Positions 1,020 through 31,497 of a stretch of DNA of 58,829 nucleotides are shown piece by piece. The notes beneath the pieces are model-generated. The model did no database searches, was not told where the DNA came from, and was given only the letters and a program-made list of their open reading frames with translations. Every line of letters starts with the position of its first letter. Position 1 is the stretch's first letter. Made by a program: the position numbers and the translations under genes. Source of the DNA: a virus. The stretch lies in the IMG/VR virus record IMGVR_UViG_3300026382_000018, positions 1 to 58,829 of that record; one strand, written 5' to 3'.

Positions 1020-2312
1020 TTATTGAATTTCTCCAATATACATAGTTTCTAAATTCCTTTTAAGAGGTATTCTTATACCTGATTTCCCACGTCTATTAAA
1101 CCCTAAATAAAAATACCCTTCAACTGCTCCTGTTTTGAAATTTAAACTGGAGATAGACCAACTTCTATGGGCTTTCCTTGCTGAATGAGCAAGATCATGA
1201 GGTTCTATTACTTCGCCTTTGTCAGGTTTATTCCAAGCATCCCTAACTGGTTGTGAAAAAGTCAAAATTGGAACTTGCCATTTTACTGCTAGATTAATCA
1301 AATCTGAATAAATATCCCCTGAGCTTTCGTAAAGCGAATCATTTTTACCTGAAGTAGGAATAAGACAATCATCATAATCTATTATAATGAAATCAGGTTT
1401 CCAGTTTTTAATTGCTTTTTGTCTAATAAGCCACGAATGTATATCAGTAGTAGTAGCTGATTTTTCAGGATAGTAAAGAACAAATAAATTGTCTTTAAGA
1501 ACTTGTGAAAACACTTTCTCTTTAAGCATACCCCATTCATCCTCATTAAGCCTTAAAATATCTGAATATGAAATTCCTCCGATTCTTTGAATATATCTCA
1601 TTAAAACTTCGTAATGAGTAAGTTCTAATGTAACATGCAACACTCGTTTTCCTAACATAGCGTTTACAGCACCAACATTAACTCCAAGTGCCGATTTTCC
1701 AGCTTTCGGTGGTGCTTGAACAACATGAATTTCACCAGGAGCAAAACCACCGTGAAAAATGTTGTCAAGTGTTGGAAAGCCAGTTGAAACGAGCACCGAA
1801 GGTGAATACCTTCTTATGAGCTCTTCTCTCACTTGATCTAAATCTTGAAAACTAACTGCATTATAACTTGAAGCACCTATCGATGCGATATACTCAAATT
1901 TATTCAGAACATAATCAATTTTCCCTTCCATAACATAACGCGGTAAATCAGGAAGAAGTTCTTTTATTTCTTTTTCTTTAAGAAACTTTACTACACGCTC
2001 CTTAACATAATTTACATCTACTGTTTCTTTGAATAATCTTTTGGCTTCTTGCAATACTTCTTTTGTGTCTTCAATTGCAAGTTGAGACAATCTATTTGAA
2101 ACTTCAACTAAAAATTGAGAAGAATTAAATGTTTCTTCAGATGCAAGTTCTTGCAAAATTTGAAGAAAAAGATTATATGGAAATTCAAACATTGGAGGCT
2201 CTAAAAGCATTAAAAAATCGAGCCTAAAAAGTGCATCTTGAACTAAAGCTACTAAAACCTGAAATTGAAATTGAGGTGAATAAAGCTTAGCTGTTGTAGG
2301 TTGTGCTAACAT
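1020..2312 (-). CDS. Replicative DNA helicase, DnaB-like
   Basis: This 430-residue protein is the likely ring helicase that unwinds DNA at the phage fork. A helical N-terminal region (1-160) precedes a RecA-type ATPase core. Walker A is APPKAGKS at 200-207, Walker B is PDFIIIDYDD at about 306-315, and the LTFSQPVRDA segment matches the sensor strand of DnaB-family proteins. An arginine-rich C-terminus (GFNRRGKSGIRI) could supply the arginine finger. The start is preceded by GAGGAGGGTAAG. The exonuclease gene lies 21 nt upstream in the same operon. The start region has 15 nt of perfect complementarity to the candidate antisense RNA at 20424-20454. Confidence 0.88.
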   Translation of the reverse strand: MLAQPTTAKLYSPQFQFQVLVALVQDALFRLDFLMLLEPPMFEFPYNLFLQILQELASEETFNSSQFLVEVSNRLSQLAIEDTKEVLQEAKRLFKETVDVNYVKERVVKFLKEKEIKELLPDLPRYVMEGKIDYVLNKFEYIASIGASSYNAVSFQDLDQVREELIRRYSPSVLVSTGFPTLDNIFHGGFAPGEIHVVQAPPKAGKSALGVNVGAVNAMLGKRVLHVTLELTHYEVLMRYIQRIGGISYSDILRLNEDEWGMLKEKVFSQVLKDNLFVLYYPEKSATTTDIHSWLIRQKAIKNWKPDFIIIDYDDCLIPTSGKNDSLYESSGDIYSDLINLAVKWQVPILTFSQPVRDAWNKPDKGEVIEPHDLAHSARKAHRSWSISSLNFKTGAVEGYFYLGFNRRGKSGIRIPLKRNLETMYIGEIQ

Positions 2313-2333
2313 CTTACCCTCCTCGTTTTAATT

Positions 2334-4359: not shown

Positions 4360-4929
4360 TTAAATTCCTGTAGAACCGAATCCTTTTGAACCTCTCAATG
4401 ATGGATTTATATTCTCCCAGTTAACATAAAGTTTTCTACTTACACAATAATAAATAGGAATGTTTTCGTGTGGCACAAAAGCAGTTCTCAAAATTATAGC
4501 TTGAGCCAATCTAGTACCTTTTGGAATTTTAATTGCATCAGGAAGATTTTTTATATCCTTATAACCTTCAAAGTAAACATAAGCGTCTCCACAAATTCTC
4601 AATATAACTCCTATATCACCTCTGTAAGAGCTCTCAACTGTTCCTGGACTATTAGCAATTACAAGAGGAGTGTTTAAAGATAGTCCGCTTCTTGGAACTA
4701 CGAATATAAAGTAACCAGAAGGAGCAGACCATTTACATCCAGTTGGAACTACTTTAGTTTGATATTCATTTAAAATAACTTCTTCCTTTGCTTTCAAATC
4801 AAATCCTGTATGCATTTCAGAGTTGAAATCAGGAACACAATCTTTACTTTCAAAAATCAAGAGGATACATCTTTCATTATTTTTAATCTTTTCAAGAACT
4901 TCTTTTTCTGAAATTTGCTTAACAACCAT
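4360..4929 (-). CDS. dut: dUTP diphosphatase (dUTPase)
   Basis: The protein hydrolyses dUTP to dUMP, keeping uracil out of DNA and feeding ThyX. All five trimeric dUTPase motifs appear in order: TGFDLKA (41-47), PRSGLS (79-84), GTVESSYRGD (96-105), KGTRLAQAII and the P-loop-like RGSKGFGSTG at the C-terminus. In motif III the usual Asp is replaced by Glu99, which is notable because that carboxylate positions the catalytic water. The ATG at 4927-4929 follows AGGAGGGTAAA and is preferred to an upstream in-frame ATG. About 40 extra N-terminal residues precede motif I. Confidence 0.88.
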   Translation of the reverse strand: MVVKQISEKEVLEKIKNNERCILLIFESKDCVPDFNSEMHTGFDLKAKEEVILNEYQTKVVPTGCKWSAPSGYFIFVVPRSGLSLNTPLVIANSPGTVESSYRGDIGVILRICGDAYVYFEGYKDIKNLPDAIKIPKGTRLAQAIILRTAFVPHENIPIYYCVSRKLYVNWENINPSLRGSKGFGSTGI

Positions 4930-4939
4930 TTTACCCTCC

Positions 4940-5200
4940 TTAATCATTTATCATTTCCAAAACAGAAAATCCTAATTGTCTTAACACTTCGATTTGAAAT
5001 TCAGAAGCTTCAACAATTACATTCTTATCGTATTTTTCAAGAATTTGAAAAACATTATTCTTTATTGTCTCTAAATCTTTTTCGTTTTTAATCTTTACAA
5101 GATACTTTTTCATTTTCTTCCTCCTTTTGTTTTTTATAACTTCTTCTTTTAATCTGAACATATCCATTAAACCAATAACTGGATTTATAGGAGTTACCAT
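4940..5200 (-). CDS. Hypothetical protein (86 aa) with a second in-frame start
   Basis: The full frame starts at 5200 behind GGAGGTCATT. A second in-frame ATG at 5111-5113 (MKKYLVKIKNEKDL) has an equally strong GGAGGAAGAAA site, so a 57-residue form may also be made. The shorter form is a compact alpha-beta unit (YLVKIKN, NVIVEA, LGFSVLEMI). The 29-residue extension ends in a basic stretch that may only reflect the embedded ribosome site. The function is unknown. Confidence 0.55.
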   Translation of the reverse strand: MVTPINPVIGLMDMFRLKEEVIKNKRRKKMKKYLVKIKNEKDLETIKNNVFQILEKYDKNVIVEASEFQIEVLRQLGFSVLEMIND

Positions 5201-5210
5201 AATGACCTCC

Positions 5211-5435
5211 TTACAAATCGATTACTGAAGTTCTAAGCCATTCGTATGCCTCTTGTTCTGAATTAAATTTTGGAGAATAATAAACATCTTGACTTGCTTC
5301 ACTGTCATATAAAATGGTATACACTTTCCAAAAATACTTTTCTTTTTCGTTTATTAACTCTATACACTCAACATGTAAAAGATTGACCATAATGTTTCTT
5401 CCGCAGTTTGCTCCTAAGCCTTTTAAAAACTTCAT
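5211..5435 (-). CDS. Hypothetical protein (74 aa)
   Basis: This unknown protein begins MKFLKGLGANCGRNIMV and ends EQEAYEWLRTSVIDL. It is the first gene downstream of the two-box/hairpin element at 5457-5500 and has an excellent GGAGGAG site. Positions 5436-5448, the ribosome site abutting the ATG, are identical for 13 nt to 20442-20454, so a rightward transcript of the latter would be complementary to this site. Confidence 0.58.
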   Translation of the reverse strand: MKFLKGLGANCGRNIMVNLLHVECIELINEKEKYFWKVYTILYDSEASQDVYYSPKFNSEQEAYEWLRTSVIDL

Positions 5436-5456
5436 CTCACTCTCCTCCTTTAGTTT

Positions 5457-5500
5457 TCTATTTCTATTAAAAATAGACTTAACTTCTTGAAAAATTCAGG
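5457..5500 (-). promoter_or_regulatory. Two-box/hairpin regulatory element (copy D)
   Basis: On the minus strand the box CCTGAATTTT (5491-5500) is followed 20 nt later by TTAATAGA, which is part of a perfect 7-bp hairpin (TCTATTT / AAATAGA, 5457-5477). The same arrangement occurs at 11837-11880 and 15523-15565, and without the hairpin at 16363-16400. The upstream box lies inside the last codons of the DnaG-like primase gene. It is a probable phage-specific promoter or leader element. Confidence 0.5.
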
Positions 5501-6480
5501 TAATTTTTCAAAATATTTGGCTCAAAAAGAACAACTGAAGCTAAATCTTGTTTAATCGCTTTCTCGAGAAAATAAGGGAATTTATCTTTAACAGAATCTA
5601 CATCATAACCTTGAGGAAGAAAAACAGGAAATACTTTACAACCTTTTATAAGAAATTTCATAATACTTTTTTGCCACTCTTCAATTGTTAAATCTGAATC
5701 TAATGCTAGATAAACAGTTTTAACTCCATTTTCAACGATAATATTTACTTGCTCATCAGTTATTTCTTTTCCTAATGTCGCAACGCTATATATTCCAGTA
5801 GTTCTTTTAGCATTAATTGCATCAAATATACCTTCACAAACTATAATTTCAGAAGTTCTAAAAGTTCTTGACGGAAAAAGTTTGTCTCTACGACTTCCTT
5901 TGGAATTTAAATACTTAGGTTCTTGCCCTGTATAACTTCTTCCAACAACATATATAACCTGATTATTTTCAAAAAACGGAAACAGAACTCTTCCTTTCCA
6001 TTTTCTTATAATTTTGTTATCAATTTGGTAGGATTTACCAACCCTTATTTGATATTCCTCAATTTCTAAATCACTTAAATTTCTACTTTTAAGATAGTTA
6101 TAAGCTATTGGAGTTAAACTTTTATCAACTTGAATTGAAATAACATCAAGATTAATTACTTCGTTATTCTGAGTTTGTTTTGCAAATACTTGAGAAGAAT
6201 TATCAAAATAACTTAATGCATCTTGAATAACCTCGTTCCAATCACTAAATAAACTTTGCGATTTTCCTGTTAAAATCCTCACAAGTTGGTTTAAACTTCT
6301 AAACTTACCTGAAGCACTACATCTAAAACAATGAAATAACTTCTTTTTTAAGTGAATATACAAATGAAACTTGGTATCAGGTGGTTTTCCAATTTTTTCA
6401 CAGAAAGGACAACATATTTGTATTTCATCTGGATCACTTGGTTTAATCTTGTATTCAAATGGAAAATTTTTGAGATTCAT
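5479..6480 (-). CDS. DNA primase, DnaG-type (zinc-binding plus TOPRIM)
   Basis: This 333-residue protein should make RNA primers. An N-terminal zinc ribbon (ICCPFCEK at 22-29 and FHCFRCSASG at 49-58) matches the CHC2-like domain. A TOPRIM catalytic domain follows (IIVCEGIFDAINAKR, with its Glu, and VYLALDSDLT, with the DxD). The helicase-binding C-terminal domain of bacterial DnaG is missing, as is usual in phage versions. A second, unrelated primase-like gene lies at 12013-14178. The last codons double as the CCTGAATTTT box of a regulatory element. Confidence 0.85.
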   Translation of the reverse strand: MNLKNFPFEYKIKPSDPDEIQICCPFCEKIGKPPDTKFHLYIHLKKKLFHCFRCSASGKFRSLNQLVRILTGKSQSLFSDWNEVIQDALSYFDNSSQVFAKQTQNNEVINLDVISIQVDKSLTPIAYNYLKSRNLSDLEIEEYQIRVGKSYQIDNKIIRKWKGRVLFPFFENNQVIYVVGRSYTGQEPKYLNSKGSRRDKLFPSRTFRTSEIIVCEGIFDAINAKRTTGIYSVATLGKEITDEQVNIIVENGVKTVYLALDSDLTIEEWQKSIMKFLIKGCKVFPVFLPQGYDVDSVKDKFPYFLEKAIKQDLASVVLFEPNILKNYLNFSRS

Positions 6481-7987: not shown

Positions 7988-9493
7988 TTATACCTCCTTT
8001 TTACTTCCTGTGTTTTTCAAAGCATTTATTACAAGTTTCTTAAATTCAATTGGATTTTCAATTTCTTCAATAGCTTGCTCTTGATACAATTTTCTCCTTT
8101 TCTTGTATTGAGAATAAAGATATACATGAGACACATCTTTAAAATCAATAATGAAACTAACTCCAGTTGAACCTTTTCTTGCTCCTCTTCCAATTCTTTG
8201 TTTAAGTTTTATTGATGACCTTCCGGCACCAGCCATTATGACAACTCCAATTTCTGGAAGATCTACACCTTCGTCCATTACTTGCGAAGCTATAACAGTA
8301 AGAATTTCTCTGTTTTCAATTTTTCTTTTTAACTCAGAATAATCCATTTCTCCTATGTTAACTAGTCCTCCGTGCTCACATATATAAGTGTTTCCTCCTC
8401 CAAATATACAAATCGATTTATCGTCGTTAAGCATATTTAGAAGCTTTTTACCGTGCTCTAGTCTTTGAACTAGAACAAGAGTTGGAACTTTCCACTCTTG
8501 AAAAAATTTAATCCATTTTATTATTTTCTCATTGCGTTCCTTATTATTAATGATGTGTTTTTCGTATACTTTGTGAAAATTAGTTGGAAATTGACTAAAG
8601 CTTCCTGAAAGCTTTTCAAAATAAACATACATTTTAGCAAGTAATCCTTTCGAAACAAGATATGGCATAGTAACTCTGTAAATTATTCCACCAGTAATAG
8701 CTTGAATAATAGCATCTCCATAATCGTCTTTGACTGATTCTTTAAATGGAGAACCTGAATACCCCAAAATATATTCAGCTTGAGTTGAGTTAATTACAAT
8801 TCGTTTGTATGATTCGGAACGACCATGATGAAATTCGTCAAGTATCAATCCATATAAATCTTTATACCATCTTAGAAACATTAAATTTTCTTCTTTTAAT
8901 GCAATGTTTAAGGAATTTACTATACCTATCGTAATCTGAGAAAGTCTTTTGATTTTACTATAATACATTCCAAGTTGCCTTTTATGAAATCCTCTTTCAA
9001 GAAATCTTTTATATGTTTGTTCAAGTAAAAATTCTGATGGAACAACTACTAAAAACTTTGCATCTGGTTTTTCGTTTTCAAGTATCCACTTGATAGTAGC
9101 AATAAACATTTCAGTTTTTCCTGAACCTGTACAAGCTTCAATAACACCTGTTTTATACAAAATTGCTTTCTTTACACCTATCACTTGATGCTCAAATAAT
9201 GTTATTCCTGGAAGGATATCTGGATTGACATCAATAATTTTTGGTTCGACCCTACCGAGTCGAACTAGCACTGGATAGTAATCTGTCTCAACTTGAAGCT
9301 CATGAGGTATATAATCCTTGATGTAAAAATACATTCCCCAGTATGTCTCAATAGTATTTTTATCTATTTCATTAAATAAGTTATACTGAAGTCCTGTTAC
9401 TTTGTCATTCCAGGTCAAAAGCGATTTGGCTCTCCTAAGCTCAAAAGGAGAGCCAGAAATTAGACATTTTTTGTCTTTAAGAGTTATTCTCAT
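7988..9493 (-). CDS. Superfamily 2 DNA helicase, UvsW-like
   Basis: This 501-residue helicase resembles T4 UvsW, which rewinds and branch-migrates recombination intermediates and drives the switch to recombination-dependent replication. An N-terminal accessory domain (1-95) precedes the Q-like motif LFEHQVIGVKKA. Motif I is CTGSGKT (121-127), motif II is DEFH, motif III is GYSGSPF, and motif VI is QRIGRGARKG. The start overlaps the recA-like gene by 17 bp, fitting a shared recombination role. RAD25/XPB-type naming is an alternative within the same family. Confidence 0.85.
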   Translation of the reverse strand: MRITLKDKKCLISGSPFELRRAKSLLTWNDKVTGLQYNLFNEIDKNTIETYWGMYFYIKDYIPHELQVETDYYPVLVRLGRVEPKIIDVNPDILPGITLFEHQVIGVKKAILYKTGVIEACTGSGKTEMFIATIKWILENEKPDAKFLVVVPSEFLLEQTYKRFLERGFHKRQLGMYYSKIKRLSQITIGIVNSLNIALKEENLMFLRWYKDLYGLILDEFHHGRSESYKRIVINSTQAEYILGYSGSPFKESVKDDYGDAIIQAITGGIIYRVTMPYLVSKGLLAKMYVYFEKLSGSFSQFPTNFHKVYEKHIINNKERNEKIIKWIKFFQEWKVPTLVLVQRLEHGKKLLNMLNDDKSICIFGGGNTYICEHGGLVNIGEMDYSELKRKIENREILTVIASQVMDEGVDLPEIGVVIMAGAGRSSIKLKQRIGRGARKGSTGVSFIIDFKDVSHVYLYSQYKKRRKLYQEQAIEEIENPIEFKKLVINALKNTGSKKEV

Positions 9494-10595
9494 TTATTGC
9501 CTCCTTTAAGGCATCATAAAGTTTTTGTTCTTCTTCATTAAGAACTGTTACTGGTTTTCCATACCACTTATTTTCAATTTCAATAAGATAATCATAAAAT
9601 TTTATTTTCATAAACATTGAAATTTCTGCAAAATGTTTATAAACAAGATATTTGAGAAATTCTTCTAATTCTTGATTTTCTTCAACTTTACTTTTTAGTT
9701 GTTTTTCATTTTGAAACTTGATAATTTTCCCATCAGGAAGCTCAAGACTAAACCACGAGCCACTTTTCTTGATGTATGGAGTCTGTTTTAAAAACTCGGC
9801 AAGAGTGGACCATTTATCTATACCTTTTTCACCATAGATTGTAATCATTGTTGATAAACCAGGAAGACCAAGTTTATTTTTCACAAGAGTAAGTTTTGAT
9901 TTAATACCGATAGGAGTTTCAACTCCATTTACATTTTTGACTATTTTTGCCTTTTTTTCTATCAAAATTCTAACTGAAGCGTGAAATTTAATTCCTCTTC
10001 CACCTGGAGATTCTACTTCTTGAACATATGAACCAACTTTGTCATACACTTGATTTACAAAAAGCATCACCGAATCTGACTTTCCAAGAGGGAGTGTTAT
10101 TCTTCTAAGAAGTGACCTTACAAGTCTAGCTTTTTCTGAAATTCCTCCTCCAAAAGTACCTTCTTTCTTTTCCTTCTCAGTTGAACATGCTGCAATTGTA
10201 TCCCAGACTATAAAAACTTTCTTGTTTTTTTCTTGAGCTTTTTTGAGTATGTTTTCTATGAGTTTAAAACCATCTTCAACTGTATCAACTTCTTGAATTA
10301 AAACTCTATTAAGATCAATACCAAATGCTAAAGCTCTCTGAACATCAAAAGCAGATTCACTTTCAATCCAAAGAACTACCGCATCATCTTTCCAATAGTC
10401 TAAATAAGCTTTAGCAAAATGAAGTGCTAATGTAGATTTTCCTGATGACTCTTCTCCAAAAAGTTCATATATCTTTCCTGAATGAATTCCACCTGATAAA
10501 AGAGCATCGATTGGATAAATTTTGGTTTCATAAATGATATTTGAAGAACTTGCTAGTTCTTTTATCTTATCTAATGCTGAAGTAAGCTCAAACAT
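9477..10595 (-). CDS. RecA/UvsX recombinase
   Basis: This strand-exchange recombinase has Walker A GEESSGKS at 47-54, Walker B VFIVWDTIA at about 131, the RecA substrate contact LWIESESAF, and the L1/L2-type segments around FGGGISEKAR and VYDKVGSYVQEVESPGGRG. The PGGRGIKFHASVRI block is strongly RecA-like. The C-terminal 110 residues diverge. It is flanked by the UvsW-like helicase and an SSB, together a complete recombination-replication set. Confidence 0.9.
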   Translation of the reverse strand: MFELTSALDKIKELASSSNIIYETKIYPIDALLSGGIHSGKIYELFGEESSGKSTLALHFAKAYLDYWKDDAVVLWIESESAFDVQRALAFGIDLNRVLIQEVDTVEDGFKLIENILKKAQEKNKKVFIVWDTIAACSTEKEKKEGTFGGGISEKARLVRSLLRRITLPLGKSDSVMLFVNQVYDKVGSYVQEVESPGGRGIKFHASVRILIEKKAKIVKNVNGVETPIGIKSKLTLVKNKLGLPGLSTMITIYGEKGIDKWSTLAEFLKQTPYIKKSGSWFSLELPDGKIIKFQNEKQLKSKVEENQELEEFLKYLVYKHFAEISMFMKIKFYDYLIEIENKWYGKPVTVLNEEEQKLYDALKEAINENNS

Positions 10596-11816: not shown

Positions 11817-11836
11817 TTTACTCCTCCTATTAGTTT

Positions 11837-11880
11837 TCTATTTCTACTAAAAATAAACAGAAATTCTCTAAAAATTCAGG
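11837..11880 (-). promoter_or_regulatory. Two-box/hairpin regulatory element (copy A)
   Basis: On the minus strand, TGTGCCTGAATTTT (box CCTGAATTTT at 11871-11880) is followed 20 nt later by TTAGTAGA inside a hairpin (TTTATTT / AAATAGA, 11837-11857, one G-U pair). It lies just upstream of the SSB gene. Copy D has TCTATTT where this one has TTTATTT, so the pairing is kept although the base changes. Probably a promoter plus 5' leader hairpin. Confidence 0.5.
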
Positions 11881-11920
11881 CACATTTTTGTAAAAATTAT
11901 TGTCATAAATTTGAGAAAAT

Positions 11921-12017
11921 GAGTATTACCTGAGTAATAATAAAATCCAATCAACCCCTGAATATTTTGATTTCAGTATTACTAAATATTACAAAAAATT
12001 AATTTTGTAATACTAAG
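11921..12017. repeat. 97-bp palindromic element, copy E (partner at 31401-31497)
   Basis: The element holds five copies of the hexamer TATTAC or its complement GTAATA. They form a small hairpin at 11923-11938 and a 10-bp perfect stem with a 6-nt loop near 11988-12013. The right 57 bp align without gaps to 31441-31497 with 47 identities, and both share ACCCCTG next to ATATTTTGA. It sits between the AEP primase and SSB genes and overlaps the primase stop codon. A protein-binding array or a structured RNA is possible. Confidence 0.7.
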
Positions 12018-14178
12018 CAACTAGTTTTGTAATTACATAAGCTTTTGCACTAATTAACTTCATTTTATCTTCCCAAAAGACAAACTCATCATCTCTCAGT
12101 CGTCGTTTAAATAAACTTTCCCAATATCTTGCTTTCTCATCTACATATCTATGTATCCACCACCACAAGTTTTTAACCCATTCAATTTCTAAAACTTCTT
12201 CAAGCCACTCTTCATACCATTTCACTTTCACTTTTGCAAAAAACTCTCTTAGAATTTTTCTTAGTCTTGGAGGTAATCCTTTAAAACCAGTTTCTTTAAG
12301 TTCATTTTCATTAACTTCTTCCCACCATACAACCAACCCATTTTGAGTTCGTTTGAATTTAAATCCAAGTTTTTCCAATTCGTTTCGTAACGCTCTAAAC
12401 ACTTTTGAGCGAGATATTATGTCCGATGGAACGAACTTTTTAACCAAAACTGGAGAAGAAGGTTTTTTCATAAGCTCTTTTATAAATTCAACAACATAAC
12501 CTTCTACTTTTTCAAAATGAGAATAAATGTATCTTTCATGTAGTTTATATTTCATGACAAGGTTCCAAAACTCAGCTTTTGTAATCTTATAATCAAAATT
12601 TTTACATACCCATTGAAGAACTTTGATTAAATGAGATATATGAAGTACTGGTCTTCCATCTTGAGTATAACTCACAATATACTTATAACACCAAGGAAAA
12701 TGTCTAAGAGCATTCTCAGATTGAAAATAAAAAAATTCTGGATTATCCTCATAGAAAAAAATGTCAAAAGGTGTCTTTTCATTTGGAGAAACTGAAATTT
12801 GATAATATCTTTTAACTTTCCCATTTTCATCATAGTGTTCATAAATTTTAAAAGGAAATCCTACTTTTTCTGAAAGCTCTTGAATAAATCCAATAAGACC
12901 TTGTTGAAACCTTCTTACTTCAGATTTAAGTTTTGGATTGTGAAGTTTTTCACCTCTTACAGTAGCTATTGCCTCACTTTTTAACTCTTGTACTTTTTTA
13001 TTTGAGGAGGTTTGAGGTTCTGAGGTTGTTTTCTCGTTATTAGAAATACTGATTTGAGTTGCAAATAATTTCTTAGAAGTTAATTTTCCATGCTTCTCCT
13101 TAAAATACTTAAGTAATCTATCTCCGTCTATATAAGTTCTGATGTATAAAGGACCATCTTTTTTAACATAGTTTTTGTGTCCTTCTTCAGAAAGCTGATG
13201 TTTTTGAAGTCTATAATGAAGCTCTTTTACTTCCTCTTTTTCCATTAATTGTTTATCCTTATAAAAATCTCTTGCAAGAGCTACTTTGCAAACTTCCTCA
13301 ATTTTATATTGTGAAGAAAATATAAGTCTTGCAGGTTCATATATAGAAATATCTGCTAAACCTTTGTATTCAAGTTGCATATAAGCAAGAATTTGATCCA
13401 TTTGTTTTTTATCTTTCACTTTAACTGGAATGAAAATATGAAGTCCTTTTCCAGATTTTGAAACTTGTCTTAAGTAATAGGTTGTTCTATTAAGTAAAGT
13501 GTCTACTGGTTTTCCATTTTCAAATTCTTTTAAAACCTCATAAATATTATCTTCATCATCAATATCAATGCAAATAAGTGTTATAGAATTTTCCTCGATT
13601 CTTGCGTTCTCTTGTTTTCTGTGATTATTTTCAAAAATGTAAGGTGTATAAAATTTTCCTTTTTTCATCATAATCTTTTTAAATTCCTCAATTGTAAGTT
13701 TTTGAGAATAGGATTTATTTTTACTTAAAGTGAAATCTCCAATCCCAATTGTGAGCTTATCATCTGAAGACATAGGAGTATTAAGATAAAACCAACCAGA
13801 TGGAAAACGACTTGTAGTGTTAACTGGAAGATGAACTCCTGTTATAAAATCAGATTTACCAAATGAAAATCCGTGTAAAGTGTTTCTTTGATACCTAAGT
13901 CCAAAAGGAGTTTCAAATTCAATTACTTCAATTGTTGATTGTAAAACTTGAGATTCTAAAACTGCATTTTCTATATACCACTTTAACGCTTCTTCATTAT
14001 GTCCCACCCAAGGCATATAATATTTTTTGGCATCTTCATAACTTTTAAATGTTAAAAAATCTTTTTGAGTTCTTGTATCCTTGTATCTAGTTAAAATAAC
14101 GCCAGTAGTGGGACATTTTTCTTCTCCAAGTTTTTCATATCTTCCAACTGTCAATATTCTCTTTATTTTGTAGTCCAT
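12013..14178 (-). CDS. Archaeo-eukaryotic primase (AEP/PrimPol)-like protein
   Basis: This 721-residue protein carries the three AEP motifs: the metal-binding pair in LICIDIDDED (D205, D207), the nucleotide-binding SKSGKGLH (240-247), and the third acidic residue in LADISIYEPARL (D276). The pattern resembles AEPs of the VirE/BT4734 and phage prim-pol type. A linker (about 330-410) leads to a C-terminal domain rich in Trp and basic residues without Walker motifs, so no fused helicase is present. The ATG at 14176-14178 follows GGAGGGTAAG; a longer start at 14190 would overlap that site. Two linker segments and the start region match rightward intergenic sequences. Confidence 0.65.
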   Translation of the reverse strand: MDYKIKRILTVGRYEKLGEEKCPTTGVILTRYKDTRTQKDFLTFKSYEDAKKYYMPWVGHNEEALKWYIENAVLESQVLQSTIEVIEFETPFGLRYQRNTLHGFSFGKSDFITGVHLPVNTTSRFPSGWFYLNTPMSSDDKLTIGIGDFTLSKNKSYSQKLTIEEFKKIMMKKGKFYTPYIFENNHRKQENARIEENSITLICIDIDDEDNIYEVLKEFENGKPVDTLLNRTTYYLRQVSKSGKGLHIFIPVKVKDKKQMDQILAYMQLEYKGLADISIYEPARLIFSSQYKIEEVCKVALARDFYKDKQLMEKEEVKELHYRLQKHQLSEEGHKNYVKKDGPLYIRTYIDGDRLLKYFKEKHGKLTSKKLFATQISISNNEKTTSEPQTSSNKKVQELKSEAIATVRGEKLHNPKLKSEVRRFQQGLIGFIQELSEKVGFPFKIYEHYDENGKVKRYYQISVSPNEKTPFDIFFYEDNPEFFYFQSENALRHFPWCYKYIVSYTQDGRPVLHISHLIKVLQWVCKNFDYKITKAEFWNLVMKYKLHERYIYSHFEKVEGYVVEFIKELMKKPSSPVLVKKFVPSDIISRSKVFRALRNELEKLGFKFKRTQNGLVVWWEEVNENELKETGFKGLPPRLRKILREFFAKVKVKWYEEWLEEVLEIEWVKNLWWWIHRYVDEKARYWESLFKRRLRDDEFVFWEDKMKLISAKAYVITKLVA

Positions 14179-14192
14179 CTTACCCTCCATTT

Positions 14193-15522: not shown

Positions 15523-15565
15523 TCTCTCTACTAATAGAGAGACGAAATACATCTCAAAATTCAGG
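15523..15565 (-). promoter_or_regulatory. Two-box/hairpin regulatory element (copy B)
   Basis: On the minus strand, TGTGCCTGAATTTT (box at 15556-15565) is followed 21 nt later by TTAGTAGA inside a perfect 8-bp hairpin (TCTCTCTA / TAGAGAGA, 15523-15542). It lies directly upstream of the first gene of the leftward replication operon. The hairpin sequence differs from copies A and D while the pairing is kept, which argues for an RNA structure. Confidence 0.55.
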
Positions 15566-15972
15566 CACATTTTAACGCAATTTTTTGTTTCAATATGCGA
15601 TTTCATTTTTGACAAACATCCAAAAATTCGTAACAAAATCTACTATAACCTTTTGAATTACAATAAGTTAAATCGTAAATTTAAGTAAAAGATTGAAATT
15701 CAGTAAGTTATCATCACTTTTCTTAAAACAAAAAAGTATAATCTGCTCTATTTTGAAGTCATAGGTATTCAGATACCTTCCTAACAAAATAATCGAAATT
15801 AGAAGGTCATAAGTCATAAAACTCACTGAGTTTCAAAAATTTCTCAAATCAAAAACATTTTCTCATTCTCAACTCAATAATACTTTTCCTAATTCTTTCT
15901 TCCCTGCAATAATCGTTACGTATATCGTCTCGATTATATTTTTAATTTCCAAACTCCTTTCCCTGTGTATAT

Positions 15973-16250
15973 CGTAACGTATTGAAATTCAAAGAAAACA
16001 TTCTGAAAATGGAAGAGAGATATATCAGATACATCTGATTATTTATCTGAAGAAAGATAGGAAATGAAATATTTCTCGTTTAGCTATACTTTATTTCGGT
16101 TCTCATTTATTCTCTGTATAAATCATAACGTATTGATTTGCAAGGAATACATTCTGAAAATAGATGAGTAAAAAATAAACATATATCAAATCAGATATTA
16201 CTTCATAATTCATTGAAACTCAATAAAAACATTCTGAAAATAGATGAGAT
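15973..16250 (+). repeat. Three imperfect ~47-bp direct repeats
   Basis: Copies start at 15973, 16124 and 16204. Each has the form (C)RTAACGTATTGA, then about 15 bp, then ACATTCTGAAAATRGATGAG. The right half, CATTCTGAAAAT, is identical in all three, while the left half is weaker in the third copy. Spacing is about 151 and 80 bp, so the repeats are not tandem. They are likely binding sites for a phage initiator or regulator. Confidence 0.7.
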
Positions 16251-16362
16251 ATACACATAAGTTATGGTGAGATGAGTATATGACTTTTGACTTCAATAAA
16301 GTGAGATTTTAACCTAAGTTGAAATGCTCTAGATTTGAGATGAATTTTTTCGAAAATGTGTG

Positions 16363-16400
16363 CCTGAATTTTGAGGTGTGATTCGTTATTTATTAGTGAG
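16363..16400 (+). promoter_or_regulatory. Two-box regulatory element (copy C)
   Basis: On the plus strand, GTGTGCCTGAATTTTGAGG (box CCTGAATTTT at 16363-16372) is followed exactly 20 nt later by TTAGTGAG. It mirrors copy B across the divergent region and precedes the rightward operon by about 80 nt. Unlike A, B and D, no convincing hairpin follows. The likely role is the main rightward promoter. Confidence 0.5.
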
Positions 16401-17659: not shown

Positions 17660-19291
17660 ATGGAAGGTTATGTAAATCCTTATTTTCAAATTATTGAAAG
17701 TTATATAAAAGATGTAGATGAAATTTCAAGAAATAACGCAAACTTTGTAAAATCCTTAGCAACATTAGAAACATCAATAGTTGGAGCAGTATCTAAGGAC
17801 TACTTATTTGATGTAATTTATGAAGGTCTTCCAGTTAGACCTTTACATGACTATGGCTGGATATATCATCATCAAACATTTAAACTTTCTCCATATTGTA
17901 TAGGTTTATCTGCAAAAAGTATAGCATTTTATGGATTAAGAAGTAATGCTAAAAATGATAAGGTTGCTAAGTCACCAAAAAGATTAGATACATTGTTTAT
18001 GCAGTGTGCTAATCTGATATGCTTGGTATCTCAGGAAGTATCAGGTGCTACATCTTTAAACGACATATCAGTAGTAGCAGCTGGCTATTTGTATGTTGAA
18101 GAGGAAATTAACAAAACTAAGAAATATACCGATTATGAATTGAAGAATATCTGGCAGAATTTCCTTTACAACATTAACTTACCATTTAGAGCAGGTAATA
18201 GTCCTTTCTCAAACATTACGTTAGACTTTGGAAAACCTCCTTACAATCTGAAAGATGAACCAGTTATTTTTGCAGGAAAACCTTTAGACTTCACATATAA
18301 GGATATACCATCTGAATTTTATGACAGAATCAATAAAGCATTTATAGATGCAATGGATGAAGGAGATGGATTAGGAAATCCATTTACATTTCCTCTTATC
18401 ACTGTCAATGTAGATGAAGAATTTGATTATGACAATCCGGTTTGGAAATACTTCTTGCAAAAAGTACAAAAGTTCGGAGGATTTTACATTCAAAACTACT
18501 ATCAAAAACCGTTCATTGATACTCCTTATAAAGAGAAGAATCCGTATATTAAACCATTAGATAAAGGGACTATTTATAGTAACTGTTGCCGGATGATGTT
18601 TTCTACTTCTCTTATAAACGCTTTGGGAATATCAGATAATCAAACTTCTAAGAATGGAATTGAAGAAACTCTTGACTCCACTAAAGTTGGCTCACATGTT
18701 TTTGGTGCAATGTCAGGAGTAGGAGGAATAGGAGTAATCAATATAAATTTAGCAAGACTCATTTGGCTATCTGGTGGAAGTACTAGAGACTTATTTAAAG
18801 CTTTAGATTATTTATTCGAAGTAGCACAAAAAGCATTGCAAAGAAAAAGAGAGTGGATTAGAAAACATTACACAGATCTTTACCCATATCTTTCTTTCTA
18901 TCAACCATCTGATAAAACACTTTACAACATCTTCTCAGTAGTGGGAGTACATGAAGGTTTACAAGCATATTACAAAGGTGGAATTTACAATCCAAAAGGA
19001 AGAGAAATTGCTCATAAAATAGCACAATGGATTGCTAAGAAAATTGAGCACATGATGAATAGAGACAAAGTACTTTGCAATTTAGAATATGCGCCATCGG
19101 AAAATGCTGCACCTAGAATGGCAAAGTATGATTTAATTTTTGCAAATGAGTTAGCAAGAGCTATTGAAAAAGGAGAAGATCCTATTACTAAACTTTCTGA
19201 TACATTTCTCAAAGATGATTTTATTAGAGAATGGACAAAACAAATGTTAAATAAACATAGCGAAAAACTATTTAAAAGAATAGGAGGTTAA
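17660..19291 (+). CDS. nrdD: Anaerobic ribonucleoside-triphosphate reductase, catalytic part (split NrdD)
   Basis: This 543-residue protein holds the ten-stranded barrel of class III ribonucleotide reductase. Active-site cysteines are visible at Cys80 (SPYCIGLS) and Cys309/Cys310 (YSNCCRMMFS), and other conserved segments include RAGNSPFSNITLDFG, NGIEETLDSTKVGSHVFGAM and the late NLEYAPSENAAPRMA. The protein stops before the zinc and glycyl-radical domain, which is encoded by the next gene. The stop at 19289-19291 is only 2 nt from the next ATG. The combined length (712 aa) equals a full-length NrdD. Confidence 0.88.
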   Translation: MEGYVNPYFQIIESYIKDVDEISRNNANFVKSLATLETSIVGAVSKDYLFDVIYEGLPVRPLHDYGWIYHHQTFKLSPYCIGLSAKSIAFYGLRSNAKNDKVAKSPKRLDTLFMQCANLICLVSQEVSGATSLNDISVVAAGYLYVEEEINKTKKYTDYELKNIWQNFLYNINLPFRAGNSPFSNITLDFGKPPYNLKDEPVIFAGKPLDFTYKDIPSEFYDRINKAFIDAMDEGDGLGNPFTFPLITVNVDEEFDYDNPVWKYFLQKVQKFGGFYIQNYYQKPFIDTPYKEKNPYIKPLDKGTIYSNCCRMMFSTSLINALGISDNQTSKNGIEETLDSTKVGSHVFGAMSGVGGIGVININLARLIWLSGGSTRDLFKALDYLFEVAQKALQRKREWIRKHYTDLYPYLSFYQPSDKTLYNIFSVVGVHEGLQAYYKGGIYNPKGREIAHKIAQWIAKKIEHMMNRDKVLCNLEYAPSENAAPRMAKYDLIFANELARAIEKGEDPITKLSDTFLKDDFIREWTKQMLNKHSEKLFKRIGG

Positions 19292-19293
19292 AA

Positions 19294-19803
19294 ATGGAAA
19301 GACTTGTTCCAACTTATCGACCATCTGGAAACATTAAAAGTATGAAAGTTTATTTGTCATCTGGATTTCAACCACCAAATGATTATGATGACTTGTTAGA
19401 TGCATTAGATGTTACTGCTGAATTTCAATCATACGCTTCTGGTGGTGCTATTTTGCATGTATGGCTTTCAGAAGAGTTAAATAATGAAGAGCTTGAAAAA
19501 TTTATAAGAAGTATTGCCGAAAATTTGCCAGTTGTTTACTTTACTGTTACTCCATATCTTACAGTTTGTAATCAATGTGGTTATAAACAGGTTGGTAGAA
19601 TTCATAAATGTCCCAAATGCGGAAGTAATGATGTAACTCAATATTCTAGACCTATTGGATATTTCAGACCTGTAGAAAGACAATATGATTCTGATGAAAA
19701 TGCTTGTTATAAATTTTGGCTTGATGCAAAAATTGAAGAATATAAAAATAGACTTGATGTGACAAAAGAAATGATAGATGAGGTAATAAATAATTTTGGG
19801 TAG
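19294..19803 (+). CDS. Glycyl-radical and zinc domain of NrdD, encoded as a separate protein
   Basis: This 169-residue protein corresponds to the C-terminus of NrdD. It has the four-cysteine zinc site (C92-x2-C95 and C106-x2-C109) followed by the glycyl-radical loop R119-PIG122-YFRPV. The first 90 residues match the last helical/beta part of the large subunit. It has its own AGGAGG site and ATG, so it is a designed split rather than a chance frameshift. NrdG would have to act on this small protein in complex with the 543-residue partner. The extension after the radical loop (about 45 aa) is unusually long. Confidence 0.82.
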   Translation: MERLVPTYRPSGNIKSMKVYLSSGFQPPNDYDDLLDALDVTAEFQSYASGGAILHVWLSEELNNEELEKFIRSIAENLPVVYFTVTPYLTVCNQCGYKQVGRIHKCPKCGSNDVTQYSRPIGYFRPVERQYDSDENACYKFWLDAKIEEYKNRLDVTKEMIDEVINNFG

Positions 19804-19830
19804 TGAGTAAGTCCTCACTACCCATATTTT
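19798..19830 (+). terminator. Hairpin terminator after the ribonucleotide reductase genes
   Basis: A perfect 10-bp stem (GGGTAGTGAG / CTCACTACCC) with a 6-nt loop spans 19798-19823. It is followed by ATATTTTG, a weak T-tract. It overlaps the last codons of the preceding gene and probably reduces read-through. Confidence 0.7.
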
Positions 19831-19845
19831 GATGCGAGGAAAACA

Positions 19846-20367
19846 ATGGGAAGAAATAAATCGAAAAATAAAGGAAAAGCATTTGAGGAAAGAGTAGCTA
19901 AGATTTTTAGAGAGTGTTGGAATCTTTCAAAACATGAATGTCATAGAGCTCTTTCTTCAGGAACTTATCAAGTTGATTATTCAGATATAGTTTTTTCACC
20001 AGAAACAATAAAAAGACCTCATTTAGTTGTAGAGTGTAAAAAGAGAGCTCATCTTCCAGCAAATCAACTTTTATCATTTCCTAATGAACTTAAAGTTTGG
20101 ATAAATCAACTTGAAGAGTCGGTTCAAAAATATTTTAGTCATTTTCAAGTTTATCCACTTCCGTTAATTGTATTTGCAATTAACAATATGAAACCACTTG
20201 TAATAGTTGATAAAAGAGAACTTGAAAGAGTAAAAAACGAGCCAAGACTTAATTTAACTTTAGCAAAGTCAATAACTGAATTAGATTTTTACATCGTAAA
20301 TAAGAATTTTGTAGCTACTTGGCTTGAAGATTTTCTCAAGAGTTGTTTAATTCCAATTGAAATTTAA
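19846..20367 (+). CDS. Putative PD-(D/E)XK-type endonuclease / Holliday-junction resolvase-like protein
   Basis: The N-terminus suggests a nuclease of the restriction-endonuclease-like fold. An early glutamate helix (KAFEERVAKIF, E14/E15) is followed by GTYQVDYSDIVF (D44, D47) and LVVECKKRAH (E63-x-K65), giving an E-D-ExK layout. The family includes archaeal Hjc resolvases and phage recombination nucleases. Resolution of branched DNA before packaging would fit its place just upstream of the terminase genes. The C-terminal half is not recognised. Confidence 0.55.
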   Translation: MGRNKSKNKGKAFEERVAKIFRECWNLSKHECHRALSSGTYQVDYSDIVFSPETIKRPHLVVECKKRAHLPANQLLSFPNELKVWINQLEESVQKYFSHFQVYPLPLIVFAINNMKPLVIVDKRELERVKNEPRLNLTLAKSITELDFYIVNKNFVATWLEDFLKSCLIPIEI

Positions 20368-20423
20368 ATTTTGTGCAATTATATTAATTTAAAAGACCTA
20401 AGTTAAATAGGGAAAGTATATAA

Positions 20424-20484
20424 GTAGTCCATCTTACCCTCCTCACTCTCCTCCAAATTCGAGGCGGGAAATAACTCCCGCCTC
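20424..20484 (+). ncRNA. Candidate antisense small RNA against early-gene ribosome binding sites
   Basis: The segment 20424-20442 (GTAGTCCATCTTACCCTCC) is the exact complement of the ribosome binding site, start codon and next two codons of the AEP primase (14170-14188). Its bases 20430-20444 also match the helicase start region (2310-2324) over 15 nt. The adjoining 20442-20454 match the ribosome site at 5436-5448 over 13 nt. A rho-independent terminator ends the segment, and a TATATA box lies at 20417-20422. No promoter -35 box is clear, so transcription as a separate RNA is inferred; it could also be the 5' leader of a longer message or an inert relic. Confidence 0.35.
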
Positions 20485-20510: not shown

Positions 20511-20984
20511 ATGAGTAAAATTAAAACAGTATCGGAACTTGATAGGAAGCTAAAAGAGTTTAGAGATTACTTAGAAGGTTTTAAAAAATCCTATTCTATA
20601 GATCCAGATTTAGACTCACTTAAGCTAGAAGTTGCTTCATTTACTCGTTTGATGCTTAAAAAATACATGTCAAGACTTATTAAGCTTGGAGAACGCTTAG
20701 AACAACTTGAAGATGAGCTCTTATCTAACCAAGAGCTTGGTGATTTTATAGAAAAAGTTGAGTTTTATAATTCATTAATTCAATCATACAATATGATTTT
20801 TAATAACCTCAAATCACTTGTTCCAGTTTTGAAAGAGCTTTCAAAATTATCTAATTCAGTTGAGCTTAGAGTTGTAAATACTGAGGAAGATAGTTCAATA
20901 CTTGAAGAACTTGAACTTAATAAAGAGACAAGGGAAACACTAAAGCAGATTTTAGACTCAGTGATGCAATATGTTGAGGTTTAA
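20511..20984 (+). CDS. Probable terminase small subunit
   Basis: This 157-residue, mostly helical, acidic coiled-coil protein directly precedes the large terminase subunit. Position and size fit a T4 gp16-like small subunit, which forms a ring that recognises DNA and stimulates the motor. Long heptad-rich stretches are visible (KLGERLEQLEDELL, NNLKSLVPVLKELSKLS). No helix-turn-helix is evident. The call rests mainly on gene order. Confidence 0.5.
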   Translation: MSKIKTVSELDRKLKEFRDYLEGFKKSYSIDPDLDSLKLEVASFTRLMLKKYMSRLIKLGERLEQLEDELLSNQELGDFIEKVEFYNSLIQSYNMIFNNLKSLVPVLKELSKLSNSVELRVVNTEEDSSILEELELNKETRETLKQILDSVMQYVEV

Positions 20985-20987
20985 GAT

Positions 20988-22856
20988 GTGTTAGACTTAT
21001 TTAAAGAAAAGCTCAAAACTCTTCCAGAAAAAGAGAAACAAGTATTAAAAAAGCTAATTGAAAAGTTCCAAAGTGATCCAAAAGTTTTGTTTCAAATATA
21101 TGCAGAACTTGAAGGTTATAAAGAAGTACCTGTTGATATAATAACATTTATCGAGCATCCAAAATATTTAGGAGCTAATCTTAAAGGTAGAATATATCCA
21201 GTATGGCGTAAAGCGTTAAGACAAGTATTTCCAAATCCTTTTTATTCACCTTATTATGAAGTAATACTTAAAGGTGCAATTGGTATTGGAAAAACTACTA
21301 TTGCAAGAATTATTGTTTTGTATGATTTATATAGACTTTTGCTTCTCGAAAATCCTCACAAAAAATTTAACTTGATTCCAACTGATAGGATAGTAATAGC
21401 TCTTTTTAACGCGACTCTTGGACTTGCTGATCAGGTTTTATATGAACCATTTAAGAATTTGATAGCAAACTCAGAATTTTTTCAAGAACATCTTGATCCA
21501 GAAAATAAGAAAACTTCAGAAATCAGATTTGTTAATAACATTGGTATCGTTGCTGGTTCTCGTTTTACTCACACACTTGGTATGGCAGTATTTGGTGGTT
21601 TACTTGATGAAGCTAATTTTGATGTAATATCAAATCAAGCTCAGGAAAGTTATAATGCTCTTTTGAGACGTATGGAGTCAAGATTTGCTCAAGCTGGCGG
21701 TAAGCTTCCTGGACATCTTTGTTTAGTTTCATCTGAGAAGTCTCCAACTGATTTTGTTTCTCAGCACGCAGAGAAAGTAAAGAATAAAAAAGGAGTAATA
21801 GTTTTTCAATATCCGATATGGGAAGTTAAGAAACATCTTGGTATATATTCAGGTAAGACTTTTAAAGTTTTTATTGGAGACGAAACGACAGATCCATTCA
21901 TTATAGAAGATGAATCACAACTTAAGTATATAGACGAATCAAGAGTAATAGAAGTTCCAATAGAGTTAAAAGATAAATTTGAACTTGATCTTCATAATGC
22001 AATAAGGGATTTAGCAGGGTATGCTGTAGGTTCAACATTTAGACTCTTTAAGTCTAAAAACATTCTTATAAAGCAAGCAGTAGTAACAAATCCAGTAAAA
22101 CAAGAAATAGTTCGTTTATCATTTAACGATAAATCAGATGTTCTTATCAACTATTTTAATGTTGATTATCTCAGAAATCCACTTCATAAGACCTCACCAA
22201 GAGTAATGCATATTGACCTTTCTATAACAGGTGATAGAACAGGTATAGCGTGTGGATACATAAAAGGATATAAGGAAGTAAAAAGAGTTGATCCAATAAC
22301 TCTTGAAACTCATGTATTTTCAGAACCAGAAATTGTTATTGATTTTGTAGTTTATTTAGAACCTCTTCCAGGTGAAAGAATTCCGTTTTATAAAATAAGA
22401 CAGTTTATACTTGACTTATCTAAACTTAATTATCCACTTGTAATGATAACTACTGATGGTTTTCAATCTGAAGATATGAGACAACAACTTACTCAAATGG
22501 GATATAAAACTGCTTTGCTTTCAGTTGACAAAACTAAAGATCCATATCTCTCATTTAGAGATGCAATATACGAAGAAAGAGTATGGATACCAAAACATAA
22601 TCTTCTTATAAAAGAGCTTTTATATGTAGAAGATGTTGGAAAGAAAATCGATCATCCTCACGAGTTTCCAGACGGAACGAAAGGAAGTAAAGATGGTGCA
22701 GATGCAGTAGTTGGTGTGTATTGGAACTTAATGACTAATAAGGATCTTATTAAGCAATTAGCATTCTATAAAATTCATAATGTTGAGTCAAAGGAAGAAG
22801 AAAAAGAAAGAACTTTAGCAAAGCTTTTCTGGGGACATTCTGAGTACGATTTATAG
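20988..22856 (+). CDS. Terminase large subunit
   Basis: This is the DNA-packaging motor. The ATPase domain has Walker A GAIGIGKTT (96-104) and Walker B VFGGLLDE (201-208). The nuclease domain shows MHIDLSITGDRTG (first acidic residue), MITTDGFQSEDM and GSKDGADAVVG (last acidic residue), typical of RNase-H-fold terminases. Its length of 622 aa is usual for myoviruses. The start codon is GTG at 20988; an ATG two bases earlier is out of frame and runs into a stop. The gene is tightly coupled to the small-subunit gene. Confidence 0.92.
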   Translation: MLDLFKEKLKTLPEKEKQVLKKLIEKFQSDPKVLFQIYAELEGYKEVPVDIITFIEHPKYLGANLKGRIYPVWRKALRQVFPNPFYSPYYEVILKGAIGIGKTTIARIIVLYDLYRLLLLENPHKKFNLIPTDRIVIALFNATLGLADQVLYEPFKNLIANSEFFQEHLDPENKKTSEIRFVNNIGIVAGSRFTHTLGMAVFGGLLDEANFDVISNQAQESYNALLRRMESRFAQAGGKLPGHLCLVSSEKSPTDFVSQHAEKVKNKKGVIVFQYPIWEVKKHLGIYSGKTFKVFIGDETTDPFIIEDESQLKYIDESRVIEVPIELKDKFELDLHNAIRDLAGYAVGSTFRLFKSKNILIKQAVVTNPVKQEIVRLSFNDKSDVLINYFNVDYLRNPLHKTSPRVMHIDLSITGDRTGIACGYIKGYKEVKRVDPITLETHVFSEPEIVIDFVVYLEPLPGERIPFYKIRQFILDLSKLNYPLVMITTDGFQSEDMRQQLTQMGYKTALLSVDKTKDPYLSFRDAIYEERVWIPKHNLLIKELLYVEDVGKKIDHPHEFPDGTKGSKDGADAVVGVYWNLMTNKDLIKQLAFYKIHNVESKEEEKERTLAKLFWGHSEYDL

Positions 22857-30881: not shown

Positions 30882-31400
30882 ATGAGATTGGTGGATAAAG
30901 TAAAAACCCTTCTCCAGAAACTTGAAGAGGAAAATTGGATAGATAAAGTTAAAACTAAATGGCATCCTCCAGAAGGACTTTTCACTAAAGACCCAGAAAC
31001 GATAGCTAAAACCATTGCAAAAGCATCTAAAGACCTCAAGCAAGCAGTTGCAAGAGTGAATTTCTTTTACAATAGATATGGATGTTCAGGAGAAAGGAGA
31101 AACGATCCGATTTGTAAGAAACGTGAAAAGGTATTAAAACTTCTTCATAAGTATTTCAAAAAGGAAAGTGAAGAAGATCTTCGAAACAAAGTTATCATTT
31201 CTTATGATGGAAAATCTTATGACATAACCTTTTATTCAGGACACGTTATTTCTTTTAAGGACAGAAAAGCTTTTCTTCAGTTTCTTGAAGAAAATGATGT
31301 TGTAAGTGAAGATGGGAAAAAAGGAGAAGATTTGGTTAGAGAAGTTGAAAGAAATGGTTATGTTGGTGCAATAATAAACAATGTATCACAAATTTTTTAA
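30882..31400 (+). CDS. Head-region protein with capsid-targeting-like N-terminus (172 aa)
   Basis: The protein begins MRLVDKVKTLLQKLEEEN, the clearest form of the shared helix, with LEE as a possible cleavage context. A basic middle with a CxxxxxxxxC pair (YGCSGERRNDPICKKREK) is followed by an alpha-beta segment (ISYDGKSYDITFYSGHVISF). It ends just before the palindromic element at 31401-31497. The function is unknown. Confidence 0.52.
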   Translation: MRLVDKVKTLLQKLEEENWIDKVKTKWHPPEGLFTKDPETIAKTIAKASKDLKQAVARVNFFYNRYGCSGERRNDPICKKREKVLKLLHKYFKKESEEDLRNKVIISYDGKSYDITFYSGHVISFKDRKAFLQFLEENDVVSEDGKKGEDLVREVERNGYVGAIINNVSQIF

Positions 31401-31497
31401 TTAGTAATACTATAGTATTACACAAACAACATTAACCCCTGCATATTTTGAATTGAGTATTATCAAATATTACTAAAACGCAATTTTGTAATACTAA
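31401..31497. repeat. 97-bp palindromic element, copy F (partner at 11921-12017)
   Basis: The element opens with the perfect 18-bp palindrome GTAATACTATAGTATTAC and ends with a bulged hairpin of TATTAC/GTAATA arms. The last 57 bp match 11961-12017 at 47 positions without gaps. It separates head genes from a small gene at 31510 on the rightward strand, whereas copy E lies in the leftward operon. A plus-strand transcript of this copy would be largely complementary to the transcript across copy E. Confidence 0.7.

Follow-up and report, generated by a model that had tools for sequence, protein, structure and literature searches.

A candidate trans-encoded antisense RNA aimed at the primase start in a phage and its relatives

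We describe an intergenic phage element that is best read, with a probability that we put at about 0.7, as specifying a trans-encoded antisense RNA directed against the translation start of the phage's own primase gene and carrying a second module for another gene start; at the RNA level, this remains a prediction. Such an element would probably switch primase synthesis off. The reading is built on computed complementarity, synteny in related phages, lineage-specific pairing, the second module, and an indel shared between element and gene.

Genomic setting and phages compared

The window analysed here is the whole of IMG/VR virus record IMGVR_UViG_3300026382_000018 (58,829 bases, 32% GC), from an uncultured phage that we call the window phage. 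A gap of 143 nt holds the element; it is flanked on the left by a PDDEXK/RusA-like nuclease gene (19846-20367) and on the right by a gene for a 157-aa protein (20511-20984), the latter being followed by the large terminase gene (20988-22856). Both flanking genes point rightward, and from about 15.5 kb the replication genes are oriented leftward. A closely similar terminase (80-86% identity) was found on four viral contigs, and the three long ones, G001 (84,995 bases, locus L003), G002 (80,914 bases, L004), and G003 (88,755 bases, L006), were used for comparison, so that four phages including the window phage are considered, with G001 and G002 being close sisters. The order nuclease gene, gap, 157-aa gene, and terminase is common to the three relatives, and the sister phages have an extra small ORF between the nuclease gene and the gap. 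No further phage with the locus was found in searches of viral contigs with TerL, PDDEXK, 157-aa protein, and primase queries, in scans of genome contigs, in DNA pattern searches, or in phage and plasmid collections; one additional contig (L035) has the primase and lacks the element region.

The predicted target gene (12013-14178, minus strand) encodes a primase-like protein with 55-56% identity to its counterparts in G001-G003 and a weak match to the PHROG DNA primase (E 2.7e-4). Its start is taken to be the second ATG (14178-14176), and not the ATG at 14190 chosen by the ORF caller, because the first ATG lies in ATGGAGGGTAAG, which holds the Shine-Dalgarno (SD) letters of the second. In the relatives, the primase starts were read directly.

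Several other features of the window deserve mention in their own right. An anaerobic ribonucleotide reductase, NrdD, is apparently split into two adjacent ORFs (17660-19291 and 19294-19803, covering Pfam NRDD positions 2-427 and 436-559), and a hairpin (19797-19824) lies downstream of the second. Early operons are preceded by a repeated CCTGAATTTT / GGCACATTTT motif (5450-5508, 11830-11888, 15542-15593, and 16335-16386), a similar form of which occurs upstream of the primase in G001-G003 and which probably represents the phage early promoters. A 99-nt intergenic repeat (11918-12016 and 31399-31497, 77% identity) contains AGTATTAC/GTAATACT palindromes and TTTTGTAATACTAA, and a noncoding divergent region (15959-16248) with three 59-nt direct repeats is a candidate origin or operator region.

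Complementarity to gene starts in the window

The anti-primase module (20424-20442, plus strand) is the exact complement, over 19 nt, of the primase translation start region (14170-14188, minus strand), where it covers the SD sequence, the AUG, and codons 2-3. An earlier sequence-only reading had reported this match, together with its extension past the ATG into coding sequence, and both are correct to the base. So are the other matches that it listed: positions 20430-20444 are the 15-nt complement of 2310-2324 (minus strand), the SD-AUG region of the DnaB-like helicase gene (1020-2312), mostly through letters in common with the primase site; positions 20442-20454 are the 13-nt complement of 5436-5448 (minus strand), the SD sequence and spacer in front of the gene at 5211-5435; and 14 of 15 bases match at the dUTPase start (4926-4940, minus strand), which holds for an internal start at 4929 (AGGAGGGTAAAATGG) and is probably generic. 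The gene at 5211-5435 is the first after a CCTGAATTTTT motif, a putative early promoter.

The primase match stands out within the window. A 19-mer pattern taken from the segment and allowing up to three mismatches is present only in the element and at the primase start, with 0.01 matches expected, and of 82 gene starts, that of the primase has the longest exact copy elsewhere in the phage, at 19 nt, the other starts having copies of 10-17 nt. The predicted duplex of element and primase start has an energy of -40.2 kcal/mol, compared with -37.5 for the best of 300 dinucleotide shuffles, and it is the strongest of 24,828 pairs formed from all intergenic windows and all gene starts, the next reaching -34.6. 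When the shuffling leaves the anti-SD letters in place, 7 of 300 sequences attain the energy of the window duplex; once generic SD complementarity is discounted in this way, the window match alone is thus moderately significant (about 2%), and taken by itself it is suggestive, not conclusive.

The remaining matches carry less weight. Those to the helicase (15 nt) and to the gene at 5211-5435 (13 nt) are of a length common among gene starts across the genome and draw attention only through their co-location, and the helicase, dUTPase, and 5211-5435 matches consist mostly of shared SD-spacer-ATG letters. As strong independent targets, these three were rejected on the grounds of their ordinary match lengths, and they are retained as possible targets, the helicase start as a possible secondary one and the ribosome site of the gene at 5211-5435 as a possible second one. 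The helicase homologs rank low among gene starts for pairing with the element (68th in G001 and 45th in G002). A broad shut-off of early genes was likewise rejected, since pairing to the early strand is no stronger than that of composition-matched shuffles or of a generic anti-SD tract. The proposal that the RNA is directed at several replication genes is consequently upheld for the primase, where the relatives support it, and was overstated for the rest, with no enrichment of the early class beyond anti-SD pairing. A search against 4227 Rfam families gave no match at or above the gathering score at the element, the only match in the window being a tRNA.

Conservation and co-variation in related phages

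In G001 and G002, the equivalent gap contains, on the late-gene strand, a reverse complement of the phage's own primase start: read backwards, the G001 element is ATGGAGTATAAAGTAAAGAGGATGGTTCAGGTTAGTAGGTAT and its primase start ATGGAATATAAAGTAAAGAGAATAGTTCAGGTTAGTAGATAT, and the G002 element is ATGGAATACAAAGTAAAGAGAATAGTTCAA and its primase start ATGGAATATAGAGTAGAGAGGATAGTTCAG. In the window phage and both sisters, a genome-wide comparison of both strands gives the syntenic element as the strongest non-self partner of the phage's own primase start, with energies of -40.7 (window), -55.4 (G001), and -60.1 (G002), compared with -38.3, -39.3, and -43.7 for the next unrelated windows. Conversely, the primase ranks first among all called gene starts in these three phages, falling to fourth in G001 when a shorter target region is used. 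Dinucleotide shuffles reach the observed energies in 0 of 300 cases for the window, 0 of 90 for G001, and 0 of 90 for G002.

The paired extent differs from phage to phage. It comprises the SD sequence, AUG, and two codons in the window, the AUG to about codon 14 in G001, and the SD sequence and AUG to about codon 10 in G002, so that pairing in the sisters reaches up to about 42 nt of primase coding sequence, with mismatches. In the G002 core (ATG to codon 10), every difference between element and primase fits a G:U wobble; the G001 duplex contains four A-C mismatches; and in the primase-like core, the elements of G001 and G002 differ by transitions only. Pairing is lineage-specific when the window phage is compared with the sister pair, the window element giving -40.2 with its own primase start, -21.9 with that of G001, and -23.7 with that of G002. 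Between the sisters it is not, since the G001 element pairs more strongly with the G002 primase start (-67.5) than with its own (-56.9). The perfect 19-nt match in the window is to a diverged primase start and is retained even though the surrounding spacer aligns poorly with the relatives.

G003 presents a different picture. Its anatomy is alike, with the hairpin and a CCCUCC tract kept (tracts of this kind occur in all four phages), and its segment pairs with its own primase start at only -12.6 and with none of the called gene starts better than expected by chance (61 of 150 shuffles did as well). In G003, the target may lie elsewhere, or the function may have been lost or not yet gained. Change in the segment without matching change at the target, which the sequence-only reading had named as evidence against its proposal, is thus seen in G003 and is not seen among the window phage, G001, and G002. 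Overall, the comparison supports well an antisense RNA at the primase start, the syntenic spot being antisense to it, in a lineage-specific manner, in three of four phages.

The arrangement corresponds to that of trans-encoded RNAs, which lie away from their target and show partial complementarity near its start: the element is separated from the primase start by about 6-12 kb, and its pairing is conserved or co-varies with the target in three of four phages, G003 being the exception. It does not correspond to cis-encoded RNAs of the OOP/sar type, as the target lies at 14170-14188 and the element at 20424-20442.

The second module

Between the primase module and the terminator hairpin, G001 and G002 carry a second module, which matches the start of another early gene, here called X (82817-83527 in G001 and 61641-62291 in G002). 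The G002 module is the reverse complement of CTGGTCAGGGAGGAGAGATGAG, a 22-nt exact copy of the start of X; no other gene start of G002 has so long a copy elsewhere. The G001 module, CTGGTCAGGGAGGAAGAGATG, agrees with CTGGTTAGGGAGGAAGAGATG at X in 20 of 21 positions, and the sole difference allows a G:U pair. In a scan of intergenic windows against gene starts, the pair of element and X came out on top in both phages (41,846 pairs in G001 and 81,700 in G002).

The two X genes have the same leader and promoter-like sequence in front of unrelated proteins, which would fit gene exchange behind a conserved leader. In G001, the X ribosome site has an extra A (GGAGGAAGAG) that recurs in the element; in G002, neither gene nor element has it. 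The equivalent of the anti-X module in the window is the 13-nt match to the gene at 5211-5435 (20442-20454); because it occupies the same relative position, the three phages share a common layout of anti-primase module, module against a second start, and hairpin, with a second target that differs.

Hairpins and transcript form

In each of the four phages, a strong hairpin of different sequence occupies the position directly downstream of the antisense segment (energies from -17.5 to -19.4 kcal/mol, z from -4.3 to -6.2). In the window, this putative terminator (20461-20484, plus strand) is a GC-rich stem of 9 bp, GAGGCGGGA-AATAAC-TCCCGCCTC, with an energy of -19.2 kcal/mol and z of -6.2. In G001-G003, the plus-strand hairpin is followed by a U-rich tail, and the U-tract of the window (ACCATTTTAG) is poorer; of the strong terminator proposed at 20461, the hairpin is confirmed, and the U-tract is weak.

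Upstream, a promoter-like TTGAAA-17-TATATT (20357-20385, plus strand) agrees at 10 of 12 positions, although such sites are no commoner in the region than in shuffled sequences; at the aligned place, G001-G003 have TATAAT where the window has TATATT. A small 5' hairpin, CCUA-AGUUAAA-UAGG (20397-20411, plus strand), was rejected as strong support because its energies are not significant, and a CUARGUUAR motif upstream is common to all four phages. The putative transcript may be a separate small RNA, or it may derive from the late operon as a terminated leader or from a 3' UTR.

Further observations concern the terminase region of the relatives. Between the 157-aa gene and terL, the relatives (L003 9895-9975, also L004 and L006) have a conserved, structured-looking RNA just before the terminase, which the window lacks; its outer stem is GCAAGGUAGGAGA/UCUCCUACCUUGC in G001 and GCAGGGUAGGAGA/UCUCCUACCCUGC in G003, a compensated pair, and it gave no Rfam match above threshold. 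The G003 terminase gene (L006, about 8740-10150) is split by an inserted segment that may be an intein with an endonuclease ORF. G003 also has a 34-nt repeat at both contig ends (start of L020 and end of L024), although it is listed as linear, which suggests a circular or terminally redundant complete genome.

Alternative explanations

The most serious rival, which we consider unlikely, is an inverted remnant: pieces of gene starts (primase and X) would have been copied in reverse by recombination and would now be decaying without function, as the orphan minus-strand translation start that the sequence-only reading had offered as its alternative. The minus strand of the element does read as the SD sequence, ATG, and first codons of the primase (MEYKVKR in G001 and G002, MDY in the window), G003, too, has genes with common leaders, and repeated copying could imitate the tandem modules, the mirrored indel, and the exact window match; the four A-C mismatches of G001, the better fit of its element to the sister primase than to its own, and the loss in G003 favour this explanation and urge caution. 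It is disfavoured by the arrangement itself, as two unrelated gene starts stand in tandem, in one orientation, and right before a terminator in three phages, with a second target that varies between them. The element reproduces the X indel, the window has an exact 19-nt match to its own diverged primase start inside a poorly aligning spacer, and the G001 and G002 elements differ in the primase-like core exclusively by transitions. Moreover, the minus-strand ORF has 9 aa in the window and 19-25 aa in the relatives (19 and 25) and is unconserved beyond the primase-like start, which is all that these ORFs have in common; a conserved minus-strand peptide was accordingly rejected.

We regard as improbable a generic C/U-rich anti-SD tract before a terminator, for instance in a host-directed or unspecific RNA, with a coincidental primase match. 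The CCCUCC-like tract of all four phages, the absence of specific pairing in G003, the 7 of 300 anti-SD-preserving shuffles that equal the window energy, and the lack of preference for early genes as a class would agree with it, but the same spot is the best primase antisense window in three genomes, and pairing in G001 and G002 extends well into coding sequence. Least plausible of all is a minus-strand decoy, in which a transcribed minus strand would mimic early ribosome sites and titrate a translational repressor or another antisense RNA: good minus-strand SD-ATG copies are present in the window, G001, and G002, but the element lacks a minus-strand gene context, the U-rich tails of G001-G003 lie downstream of the hairpin in the plus-strand direction, and no known repressor was identified within the window.

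Proposed mechanism

Pairing of bacterial antisense RNAs over the AUG and first codons blocks binding of the 30S subunit, long duplexes are cut by RNase III, and trans-encoded base-pairing small RNAs are often Hfq-dependent. We envisage that the candidate antisense RNA is transcribed independently, from a promoter near 20357-20385, or that it belongs to the flanking plus-strand operons as a terminated leader or 3' UTR; in either form, the anti-primase module would be followed by the second anti-start module and the terminator hairpin. Acting in trans, the RNA would pair with the primase mRNA over the SD sequence, AUG, and first codons, and also with a second early mRNA; this pairing would block ribosome entry and probably form a substrate for RNase III. 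As the element lies on the late-gene strand, the simplest course would be that plus-strand transcription toward the late genes lowers primase synthesis; its transcription, its timing, and its repressive effect are inferred.

A more elaborate version, which we hold tentatively and rate below an even chance, is a retargetable two-module antisense RNA made as a terminated late-operon leader. Such an RNA would be a reverse mimic of the primase start and of another early start, co-evolving with them, would couple the onset of late transcription to the shut-down of priming, and would have its second module re-aimed between phages.

Relation to known systems and significance

Antisense control of a replication gene has a plasmid precedent in the cis-encoded RNAII of pMV158, which serves copy-number control, whereas the element is a trans-encoded candidate in a phage, with a primase target. 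RNAII inhibits translation of the replication gene repB (PMC4485353). Among phages, lambda OOP and P22 sar are antisense RNAs to phage mRNAs, sar hindering initiation of ant translation and OOP promoting RNase III decay of cII mRNA (PMC12197685). The element resembles them as a predicted phage-encoded antisense RNA that pairs with a phage mRNA; unlike them, it is not encoded opposite its target but about 6 kb from the primase start, has two target modules, and pairs imperfectly in the relatives.

Trans-encoded base-pairing phage RNAs linked to replication are represented by PreS of lambda, which acts on host dnaN in an Hfq-dependent manner, and VpdS of phage VP882, which works via Hfq on host sRNAs and on phage and host mRNAs (PMC12197685); the predicted target of the element is instead the phage's own primase start. 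The virulent Pseudomonas phage PAK_P3 produces sRNA1 and sRNA2, intergenic RNAs of about 100 nt with strong late expression and a proposed trans action, whose best phage matches are 11 nt long and lie outside conserved gene starts (PMC4933390). The element is likewise intergenic and proposed to act in trans; for sRNA1 and sRNA2, no co-varying target was shown. RNAs of T4 have been described as of unknown function (PMC4933390). The open-access literature that we found describes no trans-acting phage RNA directed at the primase start of the same phage.

The functions of trans-acting RNAs that virulent phages direct at their own genes are hardly known, and the late RNAs of PAK_P3 are without a shown target (PMC4933390). 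A phage RNA with a predicted, co-varying target at its own primase start would be a testable case of RNA-based early-to-late control, and it would exemplify antisense RNA genes in which the pairing segment follows its target, or moves to another, from one related phage to the next.
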